A stretch of 64,000 bases of DNA from Spirilliplanes yamanashiensis (GTDB lineage Bacteria > Actinomycetota > Actinomycetes > Mycobacteriales > Micromonosporaceae): positions 62,001 to 126,000 of the forward strand of contig NZ_BOOY01000028.1 in assembly GCF_016863475.1 (NCBI RefSeq), read 5' to 3'. Both the position numbers and the translations under genes were made by a program. Of this stretch, positions 43,817 through 63,449 are shown in pieces (position 1 is the first letter of the stretch; each line of letters starts with the position of its first letter). The notes beneath the pieces were generated by a model. The model was not told the origin of the DNA. It did not search any database and saw only the letters and a list, made by a program, of their open reading frames with translations.

Positions 43817-43909
43817 GCCCACTAGCCACAAAGCGCACCCCATCGGACTGATCCGGCCATCCGGACTTCCCGATCATGCGACCGTGGGCCGGTAGGAGGT
43901 GTGACACCG

Positions 43910-46231
43910 GTGGTGCGGTGGTGGCTGTGGTACCTGCTCACGGCGGTCGCCGTCGTCGCCGGTGGCCCCGCGCTGCCCCCGTCCGCCGCCACGGCGCTCT
44001 ACACCCTCGTCGGCCTGAGCGTCGTCGCGGCCATCGTGACCGGCATCCGGCGGCACCGCCCGGTGCGGCCCGCCGCCTGGTGGACCCTGCTCGCCGGCCT
44101 GAGCTGCGCCGCCGTCGCAAACCTGGGCTGGGCGGCCCTGCAGCTGCTGGGCGTGGTGGTGCCGCCGTTCTCGGTGCTCGACGTCCTCTACTACGCGATG
44201 TACCCGCTGATCGCGGCGGCGCTGGCCGTGCTGCCGGTGCACGGCCGCTACGGCAGCCCGCTGGCGGGCATGACCGAGGCGGGCATCATCACCTGCACCG
44301 CGGCGGTGCTGTGGTGGACGATGCTGGTGGACCCGCTGGTCATCGACCCCGGGCGGCTGCCCGCCGACCCCGACTTCCTCGCCTACCCGCTGCTGGACCT
44401 GCTGCTCGGCGCGATGGCCGTGCGGCTGGCGCTGGTCAGCGGCGCCCGCGCGGTGTCGTTCGTGCTGGTCCTGCTGTCGGCGGCCGCCCTGCTCACCGCG
44501 GACACGGTCTACTTCATGCACGCGGCGACCACCGGCTCGGTGGACAACCCGCCGCTGAGCACGGCCGGCTGGCTGCTGGCCAACGCGCTGCTCGGGGCGG
44601 CGGCGCTGCACCCGTCCATGGCGCGGGTGGCGCCCGACGGCACCGCCGGGGCGCAGACCGAGCGCATCGTGGCGCTGCCGCTGTACGTGGTCATGGTGGT
44701 GCTCACCCCGGTGGTCGCCGGCATCATGCTGGTGCACGAGATCCGGGCCGGCGGCATCGACGAGTGGGACGTGCTGGTGCCGCTGGCCGCCACCACGCTG
44801 ACCGCCGTGCTGCTCGTGCAGCGCCTGCGCCAGCTGCACCGGGTCGCCCAGCGCCGCGCCGCCGACCTGGACGCGCGCGGCGGCGAGCTGGAGGCCGCCC
44901 TGCACAGCCAGGGCGAGCTGCAGCGCGAGCTGCGGCACCGGGCCTCGCACGACCCGCTGACCGGCCTGCCGAACCGGCTGCTCTGGCACGAGCGGGTGGC
45001 CGCCGCGCTGGCCGGCCGCGCCGACGGCGCGCTGTTCGTCGTCGACCTGGACGGCTTCAAGGACGTCAACGACCGCTTCGGCCACGCCATGGGCGACGAC
45101 CTGCTGCTCGCCGTCGCCGCCCGGCTGCGCGGCCTGATGGGCGGCACCGGCCTGCTGGCCCGCCCCGGCGGCGACGAGTTCGCCGTGCTGGTCGAGCAGG
45201 GCGGGCCCGAGGCCGCCATCCGGTGCGCTCAGCACATCCTGCGGGCGATGCGCCGCCCGGTCGAGGTGCAGGGCCACGAGCTGTTCGCCACGGTCAGCAT
45301 CGGCCTGCGGGTGCTCGACCCCGAGCTGACCGCCCTGGACATGCTGCGCGACGCCGACCTGGCGCTGCACGGCGCCAAGGCGGCCGGCAAGGACCAGCTG
45401 GTGCTGTACGACCGCCGGCTGCGCGAGGAGCGGCTGCAGCGCACCCGCACCGTGGAGCGGCTGCGCGGCGCCCTGGCCGACTCCGAGCTGCTGCTGCACT
45501 ACCAGCCGCTGGTCCGGCTGGCCGACGAGCGGTTCGTGGCCGTCGAGGCGCTGATCCGGTGGCAGCCGCCGGGGGAGCGGCTGGTGCCGCCGGACGCGTT
45601 CATCCCGGCCGCCGAGGACAGCGGCCTCATCGTGGGCATCGGGGCGTGGGTGCTGCGCCAGGCCTGCGCGGACGCGGCGCCGTGGCACCAGCGGCACGGC
45701 ACCCTGCTGTCGGTGAACGTCTCGCCGCGGCAGCTGCGCGAGCCGGACTTCGCGGCGATGGTCCGCGACGCGCTGGCCGCCTCCGGGCTGCCGCCGCAGG
45801 CGCTGATCCTGGAGATCACCGAGAACGTGCTGGTCGACGCGGGCGCGCCGACGGAGCTGGCGCTCGGGCACCTGAACGCGCTGCGGCTGGCCGGCGTGCG
45901 GGTCGCCGTGGACGACTTCGGCACCGGCTACTCGTCGCTGGCGTACCTGCGCGACCTGCCCATCGACCACGTGAAGATCGACCGCTCGTTCATGCCGGAC
46001 CGGGCCACCGGCGACCCGCGGCTGCCGCTCGTCAAGGCCGTCATCGACCTGGCGAACGGGCTGGAGCTGGGCACGATCGCGGAGGGCGTGGAGACGGCCG
46101 AGCAGGCGGTGCTGCTGCGCGGGCTGGGCTGCGAGCGGGCCCAGGGCTGGCACTACGCGCGGCCCGCCCCGGCCGCCGAGGTGGCCCGGCTGCTGGCCGC
46201 CGGCCGGCGTGCGCCGGTCGCCACAGCGTGA
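43910..46231 (+). CDS. Membrane GGDEF-EAL cyclic-di-GMP protein
   Basis: 773 aa. About eight to nine membrane helices (residues 1-310) are followed by GGDEF (RPGGDEF, motif near 420-424) and EAL (EAL near 546-548, ITENVLV, DDFGTGYSSLAYL, HVKIDRSFM, EGVE). Both catalytic sets appear intact, so synthesis and breakdown of cyclic-di-GMP are both possible. Three in-frame GTGs (43901, 43910, 43913) follow AGGAGG at 43894-43899; 43901 is too close, so 43910 is preferred. The membrane part resembles an integral sensor, signal unknown. Confidence 0.92.
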   Translation: MVRWWLWYLLTAVAVVAGGPALPPSAATALYTLVGLSVVAAIVTGIRRHRPVRPAAWWTLLAGLSCAAVANLGWAALQLLGVVVPPFSVLDVLYYAMYPLIAAALAVLPVHGRYGSPLAGMTEAGIITCTAAVLWWTMLVDPLVIDPGRLPADPDFLAYPLLDLLLGAMAVRLALVSGARAVSFVLVLLSAAALLTADTVYFMHAATTGSVDNPPLSTAGWLLANALLGAAALHPSMARVAPDGTAGAQTERIVALPLYVVMVVLTPVVAGIMLVHEIRAGGIDEWDVLVPLAATTLTAVLLVQRLRQLHRVAQRRAADLDARGGELEAALHSQGELQRELRHRASHDPLTGLPNRLLWHERVAAALAGRADGALFVVDLDGFKDVNDRFGHAMGDDLLLAVAARLRGLMGGTGLLARPGGDEFAVLVEQGGPEAAIRCAQHILRAMRRPVEVQGHELFATVSIGLRVLDPELTALDMLRDADLALHGAKAAGKDQLVLYDRRLREERLQRTRTVERLRGALADSELLLHYQPLVRLADERFVAVEALIRWQPPGERLVPPDAFIPAAEDSGLIVGIGAWVLRQACADAAPWHQRHGTLLSVNVSPRQLREPDFAAMVRDALAASGLPPQALILEITENVLVDAGAPTELALGHLNALRLAGVRVAVDDFGTGYSSLAYLRDLPIDHVKIDRSFMPDRATGDPRLPLVKAVIDLANGLELGTIAEGVETAEQAVLLRGLGCERAQGWHYARPAPAAEVARLLAAGRRAPVATA

Positions 46232-48066: not shown

Positions 48067-49113
48067 TTACCCGGCGGCGTCGACCGCGGCGATGCCGGCC
48101 TGCAGGATCGCGCTCGCCCGCGGGTAGTGCCGCAGCTGCGCCCGGTACGCCTCCAGGCCCACGGACAGCGCCGCCGGGGGCACCCCGCGCGCCGTCAGCA
48201 CCGCCGCCGTCCACCCGATGAAGTCGGTGAACACGTCCGGGTCGTCCACGTACAGCGCCGCGGCCAGGAAGTCGGCGATGTGGCCGTAGTCCTCCAGCGT
48301 GGCGTCGCGCTGCCGCTCGTCGTAGGCCAGCGCCTCCGGGTACGCCGCCGCCAGCCGGCCCAGCGCCACGGCCAGGAACTCGCCCCGGCCGCGCACCACC
48401 TCGGTGTACTCGTCGTCGCCCAGGAACGGGCGGCTGTGCGGGTCGCCCGAGGCGGCCGGCGGCCAGTCGTGCTCCAGCCGGTCGGCAGCCTCCTCGGCGG
48501 TGGCCGCCCAGGCGTCCGCGCCGAGCAGCAGGGCGTGCCGGCCGTGCCGGCCGAACCCGGCGCCGCCCGCGATCACCGGCACGCCGACGGCCTGGCAGGC
48601 CGTGATGGCGGCGTGCGCGCGGGGCAGCCGGGTGGGCAGCGTGCAGCTCAGCGCCACCACGTCCGAGCCGGTCTGGTGCAGGTGGGTGATCAGGTGCGGC
48701 CCGGGCACGTTGGCGCCCAGGAAGTCGACCTGCCAGCCGCGCAGCCGCAGCACCTCGGCCAGGATGCGCACCGGCAGCGCATGCCACTCGCCGTCGGTGC
48801 AGGCCACCGTGAGCCGGCCGCGGCCGGGTCGCCGGTTGGTGCGGGCGGCCACGGCGGCGACGACCCGTTCGCTGATGGCGGTGGCGGCGTGCTCGCGGGC
48901 CACCGACCAGGCGTTGGCGGCCCACAGTTCGCCCACCTTGGCCTGGGTGGGCGCGATGAGGTCGAGCAGGATCCGCTCCGGCGGCACCCCGGCGCCGAGC
49001 AGCCCGAGCGCCAGCTCGACGGCGCCGTACTCGTCGCCGTCGCCCAGCAGGCCCAGGTACTCGTCCGAGAGCCCCGGGCGGTCGAGGCCCGGGCCGATCG
49101 TGTCGACGCTCAT
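48067..49113 (-). CDS. CarH-like B12-binding sensor without a DNA-binding domain
   Basis: 348 aa. The N-terminal four-helix cap (about 10-95) holds W64-x9-E74-H75 (segment LWAANAWSVAREHA), the motif that in CarH photoreceptors packs over adenosylcobalamin. The Rossmann B12 domain (about 98-220) has E109-W-H111, where His111 suits the lower cobalt ligand, then RLRGWQVDFLGANVP, SCTLPTRLPRA and IAGGAGFG. CarH has an N-terminal MerR domain; here it is absent, and a C-terminal helical domain of about 120 residues (DYGHIADFLAAALYVDDPDV) is added. Start and stop overlap (TGATG) with the upstream SpoIIE phosphatase gene, which is the likely partner. Confidence 0.88.
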   Translation of the reverse strand: MSVDTIGPGLDRPGLSDEYLGLLGDGDEYGAVELALGLLGAGVPPERILLDLIAPTQAKVGELWAANAWSVAREHAATAISERVVAAVAARTNRRPGRGRLTVACTDGEWHALPVRILAEVLRLRGWQVDFLGANVPGPHLITHLHQTGSDVVALSCTLPTRLPRAHAAITACQAVGVPVIAGGAGFGRHGRHALLLGADAWAATAEEAADRLEHDWPPAASGDPHSRPFLGDDEYTEVVRGRGEFLAVALGRLAAAYPEALAYDERQRDATLEDYGHIADFLAAALYVDDPDVFTDFIGWTAAVLTARGVPPAALSVGLEAYRAQLRHYPRASAILQAGIAAVDAAG

Positions 49114-50867
49114 CAGCGGTGGCGGTTCCTCCCCGGGAGGCGGCGGGCGTCCACATGATAGTGCGAGCGGCCCGTCTGGTGCCCGGCGACGCCGGGCTGG
49201 CCGTCGAGGTCGGCCGCCAGCGTCAGCGGGGTCCGGGTGGGCGCGCGCACCGCCAGCATGGCGATGTCGTCGTGGGTGCCGCCGTGCACCCAGTCCGAGA
49301 CGAGCTGGCGGATGCGCTCGACGACCGCGTCGGCCGGCATGCCCCGGCAGCTGGCCAGCGCGGCGTGCAGGCGCTTCTCGCCGTACAGCTCGTGGCCGGC
49401 GCCGCCGCGCGCCTCGGTCAGGCCGTCGCTGAACAGCAGGCACAGCTCGCCCGGGCCCAGCTCGATCGTGGCCGGCTGCACGACCGTGCGCGGCACCGCG
49501 CCGATCAGGGTGCCGCGGGTGGGCACCTCCTCGACGGAGCCGTCGGCGCGCAGCACCAGCGGCGCCGGGTGCCCGCCGGAGGCCAGCGTCATGCGCAGCC
49601 GCCCGGACTCGATCCGGCAGACCGTGCCGACGACCAGCGTGACGAAGCGGTGCGGGCGCCGGCCCGGCTGCAGCAGCGCCTGGTTGAGCACGTCCAGCAT
49701 GGCGTCGGGGCGGCTCTCGACCAGGCGCAGCGCGCGGATGGTCTGGCGCACCTTGCCGGTCAGCACGGCCGCCTGGGCGCCCTTGCCGCACACGTCGCCC
49801 AGCACCACGACGGTCTCGCCGGACGGGCCGGCCGGCGGGAACACGTCGTAGAAGTCGCCGCCGACGCGGACCGCGTCCTGCGCGGGCTGGTACGCCCCGG
49901 CCAGCTCGATGCCGTCGGTCGGGGGCAGCTCCGGCGGCAGCAGGTCGGCCTGCAGGATCGCGGTGGTGTCGACCTGGTCGCGGTACAGCCCGGCCGCGGA
50001 CACGGCGGCGCCGGCCCGGGCGGCGAAGATGCGGGTGAGCAGCTCGTCGTCCTCGCCGAACGCGGCGCCCGGCCCGCGCTTGGCCAGCACCAGCGCGCCG
50101 GCCGGCACCGCGTTGCCCGGCAGCGGGGTGACCAGCAGCGCGCCGACGTCACCGAAGCCGTCGGGCAGCAGCCAGGCCGGCGCCTGCGACGGGTCGAGCC
50201 AGCGGCTGGGGATCGGCGGGAAGCCCGCCAGCGCCTCGACCAGGCCGGGCACCTGCGCGATCTCGTGCTCGCGCATCGTGAACGGCTCCGGCGCCCCGCC
50301 CGCGACCAGGCGGAAGCACTCGATCTTGCGGCCGCGCGGCGGCAGCACCACGACGGCGGCGTCCGCGAGGTGCGCCACGGCCAGCTCGGCGGTGATGCGG
50401 GTGGACCGGGCCTCGTTCAGGGTGGCGCTCAGCCGGCGGCCCGCCTCGTCGAGGAAGGCGGTCCGGGAGCGCTCGGCCTCCAGCGCGGCGACCCGGGCGG
50501 CGGTCTCGGTGTCGTCGCGCAGGTACCACACGTAGTGCTCGTCGCCGAGCGAGCGGCGGCGGCCGTGCAGGCGGCGCCCCTCGTGCTCGGTGTCGAAGGC
50601 CTCGCCGCCGGCCAGGCCGGCGTCGGACAGCGCGGGGACGCCGAGGCCCGCGATCGTGAGCCCGCCGGAGGTGCGCTGCGCGGCCGGGCCGAGCAGCGTG
50701 CGGGCCGCCGCGTTGGCCAGCAGCACCTCGTCGGTGTCCGCCGCGCACAGCAGCATGGCCTCCGGGGAGGCGTCGAGGGTGGCGTGCAGAAGGGCCTGGG
50801 GAAGCGGGGCCGCCAGGACGGTCGCCGTGCTGCCGTCCGTGCGGTCGGTGCGCACGCGCGGGGCCAA
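49113..50867 (-). CDS. PAS-GAF-SpoIIE (RsbU-like) protein phosphatase
   Basis: 584 aa cytoplasmic PP2C-type phosphatase. A PAS domain (about 28-130, LDASPEAMLLCAADTDE) and a GAF domain (about 150-320, LTRIFAARAGAAVSAAGLY near its end) precede the SpoIIE catalytic domain (about 340-560: VGGDFYDVFPP, VVLGDVCGKGAQAA, LLFSDGLTEARGG, GGTHDDIAMLAV), with the metal-binding acidic residues in place. Such enzymes dephosphorylate anti-anti-sigma proteins and so release stress sigma factors. The start is a TTG at 50867 behind GGAGGG with long spacing; GTG 50855 is an alternative. Translationally coupled to the B12 sensor gene. Confidence 0.9.
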   Translation of the reverse strand: MAPRVRTDRTDGSTATVLAAPLPQALLHATLDASPEAMLLCAADTDEVLLANAAARTLLGPAAQRTSGGLTIAGLGVPALSDAGLAGGEAFDTEHEGRRLHGRRRSLGDEHYVWYLRDDTETAARVAALEAERSRTAFLDEAGRRLSATLNEARSTRITAELAVAHLADAAVVVLPPRGRKIECFRLVAGGAPEPFTMREHEIAQVPGLVEALAGFPPIPSRWLDPSQAPAWLLPDGFGDVGALLVTPLPGNAVPAGALVLAKRGPGAAFGEDDELLTRIFAARAGAAVSAAGLYRDQVDTTAILQADLLPPELPPTDGIELAGAYQPAQDAVRVGGDFYDVFPPAGPSGETVVVLGDVCGKGAQAAVLTGKVRQTIRALRLVESRPDAMLDVLNQALLQPGRRPHRFVTLVVGTVCRIESGRLRMTLASGGHPAPLVLRADGSVEEVPTRGTLIGAVPRTVVQPATIELGPGELCLLFSDGLTEARGGAGHELYGEKRLHAALASCRGMPADAVVERIRQLVSDWVHGGTHDDIAMLAVRAPTRTPLTLAADLDGQPGVAGHQTGRSHYHVDARRLPGRNRHR

Positions 50868-51029: not shown

Positions 51030-51818
51030 TCAGCCGGCGACGTCGAGATCCACCACGATCGGCGCGTGGTCCGACGGGCCCTTGCCCTTCCTGGCCTCCC
51101 GGTCGACGTACGCGTCGCGCACCGCGCCCGCCAGCGGAGCCGTCGCGTACACCAGGTCGATGCGCATGCCCTTGTTCTGGTGGAACATCCCGGCGCGGTA
51201 ATCCCAATAGGTGAACGGGTGGTCGCCCTTGAGGGCGCGGGCGGGCACATCGGTGAGGCCCAGCGCCCGCAGGTCCGCCAGCGCGGCCCGCTCCGGCGCC
51301 GTCACGTGCGTGGACCCGGCGAACACGGCGCGGTCCCACACGTCGGCGTCGGTGGGGGCCACGTTGAAGTCGCCGGCCACCACGAGCGGCCCGGCGGCCA
51401 CCTCCGGGGCCAGGGCGTCGCGCAGCGCCGCCAGCCAGCGCAGCTTGTACGCGTAGTGCGGGTCGTCCGGGGTGCGGCCGTTGGGCACGTACACCGACCA
51501 GAAGCGCACGCCGCCGCAGGTCGCGCCGATCGCGCGGGCCTCGGCGTCGTCCGGGCCGGGGAAGCCGGGCTCGCCGGGGAAGCCGAGCCGCACGTCGGCC
51601 AGGCCGACCCGGGACAGCAGCGCGACGCCGTTCCACCGGCCGTCGCCGTGCACGGCCGTCTCGTAGCCCAGCTCCGCGACCTCCGCGGCGGGGAAGCCGG
51701 CCGCGGCGACCTTGGTCTCCTGCAGGCACAGCACGTCGGGGCGCACGGCGCCGAGCCAGTCCAGCAGGCGCGGCAGCCGGGCCTTGACCGAGTTGACGTT
51801 CCAGGTGGCGAGGCGCAT
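51030..51818 (-). CDS. xth: Exodeoxyribonuclease III (AP endonuclease family)
   Basis: 262 aa member of the exonuclease III family for base-excision repair. Motifs are LATWNVNSVKARL, LCLQETKV, YVPNGR, VVAGDFNVAP, FTYWDYRAGMFHQNKGMRID and PSDHAPIVVDL, giving the metal-binding Glu and catalytic Asp/His. It cuts DNA at abasic sites and removes 3' blocks. Start at ATG 51818. The 162 bp between this gene and the upstream-strand neighbour hold no gene I can see. Confidence 0.96.
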   Translation of the reverse strand: MRLATWNVNSVKARLPRLLDWLGAVRPDVLCLQETKVAAAGFPAAEVAELGYETAVHGDGRWNGVALLSRVGLADVRLGFPGEPGFPGPDDAEARAIGATCGGVRFWSVYVPNGRTPDDPHYAYKLRWLAALRDALAPEVAAGPLVVAGDFNVAPTDADVWDRAVFAGSTHVTAPERAALADLRALGLTDVPARALKGDHPFTYWDYRAGMFHQNKGMRIDLVYATAPLAGAVRDAYVDREARKGKGPSDHAPIVVDLDVAG

Positions 51819-52093: not shown

Positions 52094-54409
52094 TCAGTTA
52101 CCGGCGGTGAGCGGCCGGCGCGCCGCGGCGGCGTCCGGCACGCCCGGGATGGCGCCCCAGCGGGTGGCGAACTGGGCGGCCGTCACGGCCTTGCCCCACA
52201 GCCAGCCCTGCCCGAGCGGCACGCCGAGCGAGGCGAGGGCGTCGCGCTGTTCCACGGTCTCCACGCCCTCAGCCACGGTGCTCAGGCCGAGCGCCGTGCT
52301 CATCGCGACCACGGCCCGGACGATCTCCGAGTCGGAGTGGTCGGTGCCGAGGCCCGACACGAACGAGCGGTCGATCTTCACCCCGGTGACCGGGAACCGG
52401 CGCAGGTAGCCCAGCGCGGAGAAGCCCGTGCCGAAGTCGTCCACCGCGAGCCGCACGCCGAGCGCCCGCAGCTCGAACAGCACCTGGTCGGTCTGCGTCG
52501 AGGCGTCCACCATCACCGACTCGGTGATCTCCAGGGTGACGACGCCTGCGGGCAGGCCCAGGCCGGTCAGCTCGGCGCCCACCGCGGCGGGCAGGCCGCC
52601 GTCGCGCAGCTGCCGCGGCGACACGTTGATCGACATCCAGAAGTCGTCGGACACCGTGTGCTCGGCGCGCCACTGCGCGAGCTGCCGCAGCGACTCCTGA
52701 CGCACCCAGGTGCCCAGCGCGTCGATCAGCCCGGCCTCCTCGGCGATCGGGATGAACACGCCGGGCGGGATCGGCCCGCGGCGCGGGTGGTCCCACCGCA
52801 CCAGCGCCTCCGCCCCGACCGGCCGCCCGTCGGCGATGGCCACGATCGGCTGGTACGCCACGTGCAGCTCGCCGCGGGTCAGGGCCGTGCGCAGCGCGCC
52901 CTCCAGCTCCACCCGGTCGCGGGCCTGCTCGTGCATCGAGGTGTCGAACATCGTCGACCGGCCCGGGCCCTCGGTCTTCGACCGGAACAGGGCGGTGTCG
53001 GCGTCGCGCATCAGCGCCTCGGCGGTGGCCGTGCCGTCGGCGTCCGGCGTGGCGGCGGCGCTCGCGATGCCGACCGACGCGCTGACCACCACGTCGGTGC
53101 CCTGCACCGCCAGCGGCTCGGCCATGGCGGCCAGGATCCGCTCGGCGGTGCGCGCCGCGTGGGCGGCGTCGCCGATCTCCGCCACCACGAACTCGTCGCC
53201 GCCGATGCGGGCCACCGGGGTGCCCGGCGGCACCAGGCCGGTCAGGCGCCGGCCCACGTCGATGACGAGCTGGTCGCCGGCGTCGTGGCCGTACGACTCG
53301 TTGACGAACTTGAAGCCGTCCAGGTCCAGCGCGTACACCCAGACCCGCGCCGGGGAGTCCCGCGGGGCGGCGGCCAGCAGCGCGCCGATCTCGCGGGCCA
53401 TCTGGCGGCGGTTCGGCAGGCCGGTCAGCGGGTCGTGGCGCGCCTGGTGCTCGGCGTGCCGCTGGGCGGCGGCCTCCGCCTGCACGGCCGACACGGCGCG
53501 GGCGATCAGCAGCAGCGCGATCAGCATGCCGCCCACCGCGATGATCAGGCGGTCGGCGGCGGAGCGGCCGCCGGCCAGCAGGTCCAGCACGAACGGGACC
53601 GCCGTCACCGGCACCAGCAGGGTCAGCCGCTGCCACGACCACGCCTGCGGCGGCGGCCGGGTCGCCCGGTCCAGCTCCGCCACCGACGGGTGCAGGGCGG
53701 CCAGGCCCAGCAGCCCGTACGTGACCAGGTACGGCGCGTCCAGCAGCGGGGAGCCGTAGATCTCGCCGCGGGTCGAGATGACCCCGTAGGCCAGGTCGCC
53801 GACGAGCAGCGACACCACGCCCAGGGTCAGGAAGATCTGGCTGGGCCGCCACACCGTGGTGGTGAACGCCATGTTCACGAACACCAGCACCAGCGCGACG
53901 TCGAAGAAGGGGTAGAGGCCCGACAGCACCGACGCCAGGACCGACCGGCTCTCCACGGACGCCGCCGGCACCGACAGCAGCAGCGCGCACGCCAGGCCCG
54001 CGCCGATGCACACGATGAACGCGTCCAGCACCGCCTGCCGCTCCAGGCCGCCGCGGGCGCGCAGCAGCAGCACCACGCCGGGCAGCAGCACGAAGTAGCC
54101 GGGCAGCACCAGCATGTCGGCGATGAACTGCTGCCACCCCGACAGCTCCGACACGAACGGCCGCACCACAACGCCCAGCAGGAACAGCGACGCCGCCGTC
54201 GTCATCAGCCGCCAGGCGGCGCGGGCGCGCACCCGGTGCATCCGGGGACCCGCGACCATCGCGGCCACCGATCCGGCCCCGATGACGGCGAAACAGGCCA
54301 TGCTGACGGCGAGGGAGACGTCGGCCACGTACAGCACCGTGGCGGCGGCCGCCGCGGCCGCGAAGGCCCGCCACTGCCACCGGCCGGTCGTCGACGGTCC
54401 TGTGCGCAC
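52094..54409 (-). CDS. Membrane GGDEF-EAL cyclic-di-GMP protein
   Basis: 771 aa. About nine membrane helices (residues 10-300) are followed by GGDEF (RIGGDEF, near 403-407) and EAL (near 534-536, ITESVMV, DDFGTGFSALGYL, VKIDRSFV, EGVE), all apparently intact. The GTG at 54409 is chosen because GGAGGG lies 8 nt upstream; the frame stays open to 54523, but that part looks like promoter sequence. The layout is close to the protein at 43910-46231, which suggests paralogy. Signal unknown. Confidence 0.92.
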   Translation of the reverse strand: MRTGPSTTGRWQWRAFAAAAAAATVLYVADVSLAVSMACFAVIGAGSVAAMVAGPRMHRVRARAAWRLMTTAASLFLLGVVVRPFVSELSGWQQFIADMLVLPGYFVLLPGVVLLLRARGGLERQAVLDAFIVCIGAGLACALLLSVPAASVESRSVLASVLSGLYPFFDVALVLVFVNMAFTTTVWRPSQIFLTLGVVSLLVGDLAYGVISTRGEIYGSPLLDAPYLVTYGLLGLAALHPSVAELDRATRPPPQAWSWQRLTLLVPVTAVPFVLDLLAGGRSAADRLIIAVGGMLIALLLIARAVSAVQAEAAAQRHAEHQARHDPLTGLPNRRQMAREIGALLAAAPRDSPARVWVYALDLDGFKFVNESYGHDAGDQLVIDVGRRLTGLVPPGTPVARIGGDEFVVAEIGDAAHAARTAERILAAMAEPLAVQGTDVVVSASVGIASAAATPDADGTATAEALMRDADTALFRSKTEGPGRSTMFDTSMHEQARDRVELEGALRTALTRGELHVAYQPIVAIADGRPVGAEALVRWDHPRRGPIPPGVFIPIAEEAGLIDALGTWVRQESLRQLAQWRAEHTVSDDFWMSINVSPRQLRDGGLPAAVGAELTGLGLPAGVVTLEITESVMVDASTQTDQVLFELRALGVRLAVDDFGTGFSALGYLRRFPVTGVKIDRSFVSGLGTDHSDSEIVRAVVAMSTALGLSTVAEGVETVEQRDALASLGVPLGQGWLWGKAVTAAQFATRWGAIPGVPDAAAARRPLTAGN

Positions 54410-54550
54410 CGCCACCGCCCTCCGCAAGCACCGGCGGACAACTGAAGGATCAGGCCACCGTACAAGTCCGACGCCGGTCCCATCGGCACACGAACGGGCA
54501 CCCTGAGCGCTCCGAAGGAACAACCGTGCCGAGACGTTCAGCCGCCCCCA

Positions 54551-60828: not shown

Positions 60829-62865
60829 ATGCGGGCGATGACCCCGTACCCGTTCGCCGCCGTCGTCGGCCTCGACGACCTCCGCCTGGCCCTGCTGCTC
60901 ACCGCCGTGTCGCCCGCCGTGGGCGGGGTGCTGGTGCGCGGCGAGAAGGGCACCGCCAAGTCCACCGTGGTCCGCGCGCTCGCGGCGCTGCTGCCGGGCG
61001 TCGACGTGGTCGCCGGGTGCCGGTTCGCCTGCGACCCCGCCGCCCCGGACGCCGCCTGCCCGGACGGCCCGCACGCCGCGCCCGTCGCCGCCACCCGGCC
61101 CGCCCGCCTGGTCGAGCTGCCGGTCGGCGCCACCGAGGACCGGGTCGTCGGCACGCTGGACATCCGGCGCGCCCTCGCCGACGGCGTCACGGCGTACGAG
61201 CCGGGCCTGCTCGCCGCCGCCCACCGCGGGGTGCTCTACGTCGACGAGGTCAACCTGTTGCCCGACCACCTCGTGGACCTGCTGCTGGACGCCGCCGCGA
61301 TGGGCCGCGCCCACGTCGAGCGCGACGGCCTCAGCGTCCAGCACGCCGCCCGGTTCCTGCTGGTCGGCACGATGAACCCGGAGGAGGGCGAGCCGCGCCC
61401 GCAGCTGGTCGACCGGTTCGGCCTGGTGGTGACCGTGCGCGCGCCGCGCGAGCCCGGCGCCCGGGCCGAGGTGGTGCGCCGCCGGCTGGCGTACGACGCC
61501 GACCCGGCCGGGTTCGCCGCGCGCTGGGCCGGCGCGGACGACGCGCTGGCCGTGCGCATCGCCGACGCCCGGCGCCGGCTGCCCGGCGTGCTGCTGCCCG
61601 ACGCCCAGCTCGACCGGATCGCGCGCATCTGCGTCGAGTACGGCGTGGACGGGATGCGCGCCGACATCGTGGTGGCCCGGGCCGCGGTCGCGCTGGCCGC
61701 CTGGCACGGCCACGACACTGTCACCGCCGACGACATCCGCGACGCCGCCCGGCTCGCCCTGCCGCACCGGCGGCGCCGCGACCCGCTCGACCCGCCCGGC
61801 ACCGACGAGCAGAAGCTTGACGACCTGCTGGAACGCGACGCCGCCGACCACCCCGACGAGCCGCCGCCCGGCGACTCCGACGGCGACGAGGACCCGCAGC
61901 CGCCCCCGCCCGGCGGCGGCGGCCCGAATCCGGACGACCCCGGCCCGGATGACGGCGGCCCCGACGGCGGTCCCGGCGGCGGTCCCGGCGGCGGCGCGCC
62001 TGCACCAACCGACGGCGCAGCGACGCCGGACGGCGACCCGGCCGGTGACCCCGGCGGCGACCCGGGCGACGCCGACCGCCCCGACCCGCGGCCCGCCCCG
62101 CAGCCCGTCGGCGCGCCCGCCGCCGCCGGACCCGCCTACCGCCCCCGCGCCCTGCGCCTGGCCGCCCGCGGCGACGGCGGCCACGCCGGCCGCCGCTCGC
62201 CCGCCTACGCCCGCCGGGGCCGGATCGTCCGGTCCCGGGCCCCGCGCGGCGACCGGCTCACCGGCGCGGTGCACCTGCCCGCCACCCTGCGCGCGGCGGC
62301 CCAGCGCGGCGCCCGCCGGGCGACCGTGGCGGACCTGCGCGAGGCCGTCCACGTCGGCCGGGAGGCGAACCTGGTGCTGTTCGTCGTCGACGCCTCCGGC
62401 TCGATGGCGGCCCGGCGCCGGATGACCGTCGTCAAGACGGCCGTGCTGTCGCTGCTGCGCGACGCGTACCAGCGGCGCGACCGGGTCGGCATGATCACCT
62501 TCCGGGGCCGGACGGCCGAGGCGGTGCTGCCGCCCACGTCCAGCCACGAGGTGGGCGTCGCCCGGCTCGCCGACCTGCGCACCGGCGGGCGTACCCCGCT
62601 GGCCGCCGGCCTGCGCACCGCGGCCGCGACCCTCGCCACCGAGCGCCGCCGCGACCCGCGGCGGCGGGCCCTGCTCGTGGTCGTCACCGACGGGCGCGCC
62701 ACCAGCGGCCCGGATCCGGTGACCGTGGCCGGCGCCCTCGCCGGGGTGGCCGCCGTCGTCGTGGACTGCGAGTCGGGGCCGGTCCGGCTCGGGCTGGCCG
62801 GGCGGCTCGCCGCCGCGCTGTCGGCCGACTGCATCCCGCTGGAGCACCTGGAGAGGGCCGCCTGA
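60829..62865 (+). CDS. Cobalto-/magnesium-chelatase ATPase fused to VWA domain
   Basis: 678 aa fusion of chelatase I-type and D-type subunits. The AAA+ half has Walker A with Lys44 (RGEKGTAKST), GTLDIRRAL, Walker B GVLYVDEVNLLPDH and LLVGTMNPEEG. A Pro/Gly/Asp-rich linker (about 340-430) leads to a VWA domain with a MIDAS starting at Asp521 (VVDASGSMAARRR) and TDGRATSG. Under a cobalamin riboswitch and before cobO and cobB, it is most likely the motor of cobalt insertion together with a CobN-type subunit not in this window. ATG 60829 and 60838 are both possible starts. Confidence 0.92.
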   Translation: MRAMTPYPFAAVVGLDDLRLALLLTAVSPAVGGVLVRGEKGTAKSTVVRALAALLPGVDVVAGCRFACDPAAPDAACPDGPHAAPVAATRPARLVELPVGATEDRVVGTLDIRRALADGVTAYEPGLLAAAHRGVLYVDEVNLLPDHLVDLLLDAAAMGRAHVERDGLSVQHAARFLLVGTMNPEEGEPRPQLVDRFGLVVTVRAPREPGARAEVVRRRLAYDADPAGFAARWAGADDALAVRIADARRRLPGVLLPDAQLDRIARICVEYGVDGMRADIVVARAAVALAAWHGHDTVTADDIRDAARLALPHRRRRDPLDPPGTDEQKLDDLLERDAADHPDEPPPGDSDGDEDPQPPPPGGGGPNPDDPGPDDGGPDGGPGGGPGGGAPAPTDGAATPDGDPAGDPGGDPGDADRPDPRPAPQPVGAPAAAGPAYRPRALRLAARGDGGHAGRRSPAYARRGRIVRSRAPRGDRLTGAVHLPATLRAAAQRGARRATVADLREAVHVGREANLVLFVVDASGSMAARRRMTVVKTAVLSLLRDAYQRRDRVGMITFRGRTAEAVLPPTSSHEVGVARLADLRTGGRTPLAAGLRTAAATLATERRRDPRRRALLVVVTDGRATSGPDPVTVAGALAGVAAVVVDCESGPVRLGLAGRLAAALSADCIPLEHLERAA

Positions 62866-63449
62866 TGCCGCAGGGGAAGGTCGAGGTCGTCCCGGACGAC
62901 GGGCTGACGACCCGCCAGCGCCGCCGCCAGGCCGTGCTGGCCGTGCACACCGGGCACGGCAAGGGCAAGTCGACGGCCGCGTTCGGGATGGCGCTGCGCG
63001 CGTGGAGCCAGGGCTGGCCGATCGGCGTGTTCCAGTTCGTGAAGAGCCAGAAGTGGCGGGTCGGCGAGGAGGCCGCCATGCGGCAGCTCGGCAACGTCAC
63101 CTGGCACAAGATGGGCGAGGGCTGGTCGTGGATCCAGCGCGCCGGCACCGAGCGCGACCACGCCGCCGAGGCCGCCGAGGGCTGGGCGCAGATCAAGCGG
63201 GACCTGGCCGCCGAGACGTACCGCTTCTACGTGCTGGACGAGTTCACGTACCCGATGAAGTGGGGGTGGGTCGACGTCGCCGACGTGGTGGCGACCCTGC
63301 GGGAGCGCCCCGGCACCCAGCACGTGGTGGTCACCGGCCGGGACGCGCACCCGGACCTGCTGGCCGCCGCCGACCTGGTCACCGAGATGACGAAGGTCAA
63401 GCACCCGATGGACGCGGGCCGCAAGGGCCAGGCGGGCATCGAGTGGTGA
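62865..63449 (+). CDS. cobO: Cob(I)yrinic acid a,c-diamide adenosyltransferase
   Basis: 194 aa CobA/CobO/BtuR-type enzyme that adds the adenosyl group from ATP to the corrinoid cobalt. P-loop HTGHGKGKSTAAFGMALRA, then FQFVKSQKWRVGEE, FYVLDEFTYPMKWGWVDV and VVTGRDAHPDLLAAADLVTE. The length fits CobO. Its ATG shares one base with the chelatase stop (TGATG), and its stop overlaps the next gene by 4 bp. Confidence 0.96.
   Translation: MPQGKVEVVPDDGLTTRQRRRQAVLAVHTGHGKGKSTAAFGMALRAWSQGWPIGVFQFVKSQKWRVGEEAAMRQLGNVTWHKMGEGWSWIQRAGTERDHAAEAAEGWAQIKRDLAAETYRFYVLDEFTYPMKWGWVDVADVVATLRERPGTQHVVVTGRDAHPDLLAAADLVTEMTKVKHPMDAGRKGQAGIEW

Follow-up and report, generated by a model that had tools for sequence, protein, structure and literature searches.

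The window analyzed here is a stretch of 64,000 nucleotides from Spirilliplanes yamanashiensis (positions 62,001 to 126,000 of contig NZ_BOOY01000028.1), and our subject is a pair of overlapping genes on its reverse strand, which code for a vitamin B12-binding protein and, directly upstream, a PAS-GAF-SpoIIE phosphatase (Table 1). The ATG of the former shares a single base (position 49113) with the TGA stop of the latter, giving TGATG in the sequence 'ccgcTGATGagc', as had been noted in an earlier reading of these letters by a model (hereafter the original prediction). Translation of the downstream gene recovered W64, A65, E74, H75 and H111, and a Pfam scan drew in no MerR or helix-turn-helix domain. 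The original prediction, which had described a CarH-like W64-x9-E74-H75 motif with a probable cobalt-ligand H111 in a protein devoid of a MerR domain, is borne out on these points. A structure model obtained with AlphaFold2 (AF2; predicted local distance difference test, pLDDT, 92) and Foldseek comparisons delineated a four-helix bundle with a Rossmann B12-binding module, followed by a C-terminal globin-like domain.

Searches with phmmer recovered as the closest solved structures those of SasPcob from Saccharothrix syringae (8J2X, 3.9e-96; 8J2W, 4.1e-96), followed by AbPcob (8J2Y, 7.5e-48) and at a much greater distance CarH (5C8D, 3.6e-6). The best fold match of the model was likewise 8J2W (E 4.5e-26, TM 0.87/0.91, 333 aligned columns), and the two proteins share 53% identity across 324 residues. 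On the basis of sequence and modeled fold we identify the B12 protein as a photocobilin, a member of a published sensor family that uses vitamin B12 together with a bile pigment. In the alignment W61, E71 and H72 of the SasPcob adenosyl pocket correspond to W64, E74 and H75, its lower cobalt ligand H108 to H111, and the biliverdin-site residues H137, D270 and W296 to H140, D275 and W301; thus all 7 of the chromophore residues that we compared, from among those named for SasPcob (PMC10979010), are kept. Given this relationship and the retained chromophore residues, the C-terminal domain, which had been taken for a new helical domain, is instead the already described photoglobin, a biliverdin-binding globin. 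The intact residues suggest that the window protein probably binds both adenosylcobalamin (AdoCbl) and biliverdin, and as the family also binds the latter, the sensor should respond to red besides green light.

Among 111 close relatives W64, E74, H75, H111, H140 and W301 are retained without exception and D275 in 110, so that a loss of the adenosyl-pocket motif (written W-(10)x-EH in the photocobilin paper, PMC10979010), which was specifically looked for in close homologues, was not encountered. The residue after W64 is alanine in 109 of them, glutamine in 2 and histidine in none. In SasPcob, which has glutamine here, the light state is water/hydroxide-ligated, unlike the bis-His state of CarH (PMC10979010), and with no histidine after W64 the window protein would not be expected to form the bis-His light state of CarH. 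The alanine, which had led the original prediction to suspect a different light-state chemistry, is no local oddity. Membership in CarH/LitR was rejected, given the missing MerR domain and bis-His residue and a score of 40 bits against a cut-off of 400 for the NCBIfam CarH model.

In the partner phosphatase the SpoIIE domain is recognized by Pfam, while the PAS and GAF assignments of the original prediction are backed by relatives and the fold model. The metal-binding residues D338, D358, D481 and D533/D534 are conserved in 30 of 30 relatives, and the top Foldseek matches are the RsbU/RsbW of Rv1364c, RssB, SiaA and the Bacillus subtilis SpoIIE.

The linkage of the two genes was followed across the actinobacteria. 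A search over 355 genomes of the family detected a photocobilin at an E-value of 1e-30 or better in 222. A scan of one-genome-per-species contigs yielded 540 relatives, the best 80 of which constitute a set of named loci from Actinoplanes and relatives, Catenuloplanes, Micromonospora, Streptosporangium and relatives, Streptomyces, Mycobacterium and Allokutzneria; one locus represented by a 100-base placeholder (L031) was left out of all counts. At 80/80 of these loci the gene immediately upstream, in the same orientation, is that of the phosphatase, and the two overlap in 66 (by 4 bases in 54 and by 1 base in 12). The original prediction had called for a search for conserved adjacency across Micromonosporaceae, and there a phosphatase homologue was found in the same position at 49 of 49 loci, nearly always with an ATGA/GTGA or TGATG overlap; these share genomes with the 80 named loci, and the two counts are not additive. 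The same upstream phosphatase recurs in all 23 further loci, some of them second copies with 36-50% identity, and no other always-present output gene was found. In a phylum-wide sample it is present at the loci with more than 50% identity (8 and that of the window itself) and at three distant ones (L068, L069 and L074), and was not detected within 1.5 kb flanks at the other 13 distant loci, which share only the phylum. Since SpoIIE-like stretches number 13 in the window genome, such a neighbor would be rare by chance, and chance cannot account for 80/80.

The two genes also appear to share their evolutionary fate. Within an Actinoplanes-like genus 62 of 68 genomes have both, and the 5 without a photocobilin match are also without the phosphatase; in one further genome of this genus (G017) the sole photocobilin is a divergent one, preceded by a likewise divergent phosphatase of its own. 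Paralogous pairs (L040/L160) have diverged together (44% and 43%), and over 109 pairs the photocobilin and phosphatase distance matrices are correlated (r 0.92, against a maximum of 0.15 upon shuffling), although shared ancestry predicts a similar correlation. At two loci of the Actinoplanes group (L156 and L158, in genomes G015 and G068) the photocobilin aligns in two pieces beside the phosphatase gene, which may reflect sequencing frameshifts, insertions or decaying genes.

A third gene, coding for a STAS protein, lies directly downstream of the photocobilin in 32 of the 80 named loci (STAS/STAS_2 confirmed with Pfam on examples). It is seen in Streptomyces (5/5), Mycobacterium and Mycolicibacterium (7/7), Streptosporangium (6/6) and Micromonospora (8/8), as well as in Catenuloplanes and some others, and at two Streptomyces loci (L126 and L145) its start also overlaps the photocobilin stop. 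In Micromonospora (L133 and other loci) a second STAS gene lies divergently ahead of the phosphatase gene, which suggests two substrates. The established substrates of SpoIIE/RsbU phosphatases are STAS anti-anti-sigma factors (PMC11418112). By analogy, a STAS protein would also be the substrate in the window organism, the genome of which has 16 STAS matches elsewhere, with no obvious partner among them.

Taken together, these observations make it likely that the gene pair constitutes a partner-switch module gated by light, with the photocobilin in the role that RsbQ and RsbT have towards RsbP and RsbU. Across the family, we lean towards the view that actinobacterial photocobilins of the standalone type serve a single dedicated output. 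This would be the PAS-GAF-SpoIIE phosphatase from the gene that overlaps theirs, in many cases with the STAS substrate encoded third, together forming a B12- and bilin-gated partner switch. The claim that a B12 photosensor of the CarH type controls a SpoIIE phosphatase and thereby partner switching is well supported by the gene linkage, the co-loss and the STAS neighbors, and needs amending in that the sensor also belongs to a bilin-binding family. The original prediction had further regarded this type of output as not known for such a sensor; in fact, STRING had predicted SpoIIE, STAS and PP2C partners for SasPcob, and a role in stress response was proposed (Zhang et al. 2024, PMC10979010). 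The same paper terms the function of standalone photocobilins 'less clear', and includes a gene-neighborhood network analysis as well. In the sources covered by our literature search the photocobilin-SpoIIE link occurs only there, as a prediction, and an experimental test of it was not found; the paper describing photoglobin, which lay outside that scope, may already mention SpoIIE. Thus, while the sensor itself was already known, what is added here is a coupled, co-lost and family-wide gene pair with a STAS gene as its third member.

The physical interaction of the two proteins and its control by light are what we infer from this gene organization, and the following sequence of events can be envisaged. 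In the dark the photocobilin would bind AdoCbl, and probably biliverdin too, as a head-to-tail dimer. Green light absorbed through B12, or red light relayed from biliverdin, would break the Co-C bond, upon which the dimer would rearrange or fall apart. The photocobilin would directly contact the co-translated phosphatase, most likely where the PAS and GAF sensors and the coiled-coil linker lie, and thereby alter its dimerization in the manner proposed for RsbQ/RsbP and RsbT/RsbU. The phosphatase would then dephosphorylate a STAS anti-anti-sigma factor, encoded by the adjoining gene in many relatives and elsewhere in the window genome, which would in turn tie up an anti-sigma kinase and free a sigma factor. 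There are precedents for several of these steps: contact in trans with SasPcob or AbPcob alters the activity of a diguanylate cyclase that is a separate protein, and does so depending on light (PMC10979010); in PPM phosphatases with N-termini of the PAS, GAF or RsbU type, switching is believed to proceed via coiled-coil linkers and dimerization; and switching by a partner protein has been shown for RsbU and predicted for RsbP (PMC12143880). Co-encoding of the putative partner with its phosphatase, typical of RsbP/RsbQ-type switches, is conserved at every one of the named loci. Whether light would activate or inhibit the phosphatase is a matter of guesswork, in which we lean slightly to activation by analogy with AbDPcob.

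Table 1. Positions of the gene pair, its domains and motifs, and neighboring genes in the window
Feature	Position	Strand	Basis or remarks
Photocobilin gene, 348 residues	48067..49113 (including stop)	-	four-helix and Rossmann AdoCbl-binding module, then predicted C-terminal bilin-binding globin
AdoCbl-binding module, residues 17-212	48478..49065	-	Pfam B12-binding_2 5e-13, B12-binding 7e-17
C-terminal globin-like (photoglobin) domain, residues 234-347	48073..48414	-	alignment to SasPcob; all-helical in model; full-length Foldseek match 8J2W
W64-A65-x8-E74-H75, adenosyl-group pocket and dimer contact	48889..48924	-	translation; W/E/H invariant in 131/131 aligned sequences
E109-W110-H111, lower cobalt ligand motif E/DxH	48781..48789	-	aligned to SasPcob His108; H invariant in 131/131
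PAS-GAF-SpoIIE (PPM) phosphatase gene, 584 residues	49113..50867	-	Pfam SpoIIE 2.3e-43
PAS-like domain, residues 24-118	50514..50798	-	PAS_8 2e-4 (sub-threshold); PAS_8 in 9/30 relatives; fold model
Signaling helix between PAS and GAF, residues 120-147	50427..50510	-	AF2 model, high pLDDT
GAF-like domain, residues 152-270	50058..50414	-	GAF in 18/30 relatives; fold model
Long linker helix into phosphatase domain, residues 272-308 (37 residues); candidate coiled-coil linker	49944..50054	-	AF2 model; analogy to RsbU/RsbP linkers (PMC12143880)
PPM phosphatase domain, residues 320-541	49245..49910	-	fold model; metal-binding Asp kept
GGDEF-EAL protein gene	43901-46231	+	on one side of the pair
xth-like exonuclease gene	51030-51818	-	between phosphatase and GGDEF-EAL gene, same strand
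GGDEF-EAL protein gene	52094-54523	-	flanks the pair upstream, same strand
CobO-type ATP:corrinoid adenosyltransferase gene	about 62931-63446	+	makes AdoCbl; ~14 kb from the photocobilin

Several observations weigh against the proposed partner switch. A linked STAS gene is seen in 0/40 loci of the Actinoplanes group, and there is none in the 64-kb window. The phosphatase has PAS and GAF sensors of its own, and its main signals could be others. Furthermore, 39 of the 40 loci of the Actinoplanes group keep the upstream GGDEF-EAL gene, and certain photocobilins belonging to other classes, at distant loci (L063, L072 and L073), adjoin EAL or GGDEF proteins; with such neighbors, the photocobilin may have another output, either in addition or instead.

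Actinoplanes-type bacteria live in soil and are not photosynthetic, a circumstance favoring the idea that the photocobilin mainly informs the phosphatase of cofactor status (AdoCbl, biliverdin/heme turnover or redox), with the photochemistry being incidental. The dark cyclase activity of AbDPcob does differ between its apo and AdoCbl-bound forms (PMC10979010). However, all 131 aligned sequences have the adenosyl-stacking tryptophan and the EH residues that in CarH and SasPcob form the light switch, and the biliverdin pocket, useful mainly for sensing red light, is kept (D275 in 110 and W301 in 111 of the 111 close relatives). This renders the explanation unlikely, though it is the best of the alternatives. 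It is more doubtful still that cyclic di-GMP (c-di-GMP) is the real output, with the photocobilin acting on the flanking GGDEF-EAL enzymes. Such genes do occur on both sides of the pair, and light activates the diguanylate cyclase AbDPcob (PMC10979010), but the GGDEF-EAL link is seen in 0/40 named loci outside the Actinoplanes group, and the intervening xth gene is equally conserved, as plain synteny predicts, whereas the SpoIIE link spans all 80 loci and several families, in most cases with overlapping codons. As their link is limited to that group and equals the synteny of xth, the flanking GGDEF-EAL genes were downgraded as targets. Photocobilin outputs may differ by lineage, with c-di-GMP in other parts of the phylum and the SpoIIE phosphatase in the class of the window.

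Operon membership alone proves no interaction, and as the phosphatase belongs to a family with its own PAS and GAF sensors, the two proteins might merely be co-expressed and work separately with no direct contact. This we regard as improbable, since the overlapping order is kept across families, pairs are lost together, paralogous pairs co-diverge and no other constant output gene was found. Finally, the idea that the B12 protein is a corrinoid subunit of a methyltransferase system rather than a sensor, to which weak NCBIfam matches to the MtgC, MtbC and MetH corrinoid proteins might point, can practically be dismissed and was rejected, given that these matches reach only ~20-25 bits against cut-offs of at least 310, that the best match in sequence and fold is a photocobilin with its globin domain included, and that the recurrent neighbors are phosphatase and STAS genes.

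Both chromophores appear to be within reach of the organism, as its genome encodes a heme oxygenase, a source of biliverdin (5e-53), and a CobO adenosyltransferase (5e-60). At L187:7507-8480 (contig 3 of G000) a STAS anti-anti-sigma gene follows the heme oxygenase gene in convergent orientation; given the 16 STAS matches in the genome this adjacency may be due to chance.

If the proposed partner switch is correct, a sigma factor would come under the control of green to red light in Streptomyces, mycobacteria and Micromonosporaceae, and in mycobacteria and the actinobacteria of soil, partner switching of the general-stress type would acquire a light input based on vitamin B12 and bilin. The conserved coupled gene order turns a STRING guess for one species into a specific, testable assignment, and a natural light-switched protein phosphatase would then be on offer.

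Among known systems the closest to the window photocobilin is SasPcob (PDB 8J2W/8J2X; PMC10979010), which it resembles in length, domain order, sequence identity and the adenosyl-pocket, cobalt-ligand and biliverdin-contact residues; it differs in coming from another genus and in having Ala instead of Gln after the Trp, and its chromophore binding is predicted where that of SasPcob is experimental. Thermus thermophilus CarH (CarH/LitR; PDB 5C8D) shares the AdoCbl-binding fold, the Wx9EH motif and the lower-ligand His, whereas the window protein lacks the MerR DNA-binding domain and the His after Trp, and has an extra globin domain. In AbDPcob (PDB 8J2Y) a photocobilin module likewise controls an enzyme, which is activated by light, but there the two are fused and the output is c-di-GMP synthesis, while here the partner is a separate phosphatase; moreover, the lowered biliverdin affinity of AbDPcob has been attributed to a His replacing Asp270, and the window protein keeps the Asp (D275). 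On the output side, RsbP/RsbQ and RsbU/RsbT of Bacillus subtilis (PMC12143880) offer the nearest parallel, with a sensor-domain PPM phosphatase, PAS-containing in RsbP, that is switched by a partner and targets a STAS protein. Their partners are an alpha/beta hydrolase (RsbQ) or RsbT, whereas in the window a photocobilin would take this role, and unlike RsbP and RsbU its phosphatase combines a PAS with a GAF domain.

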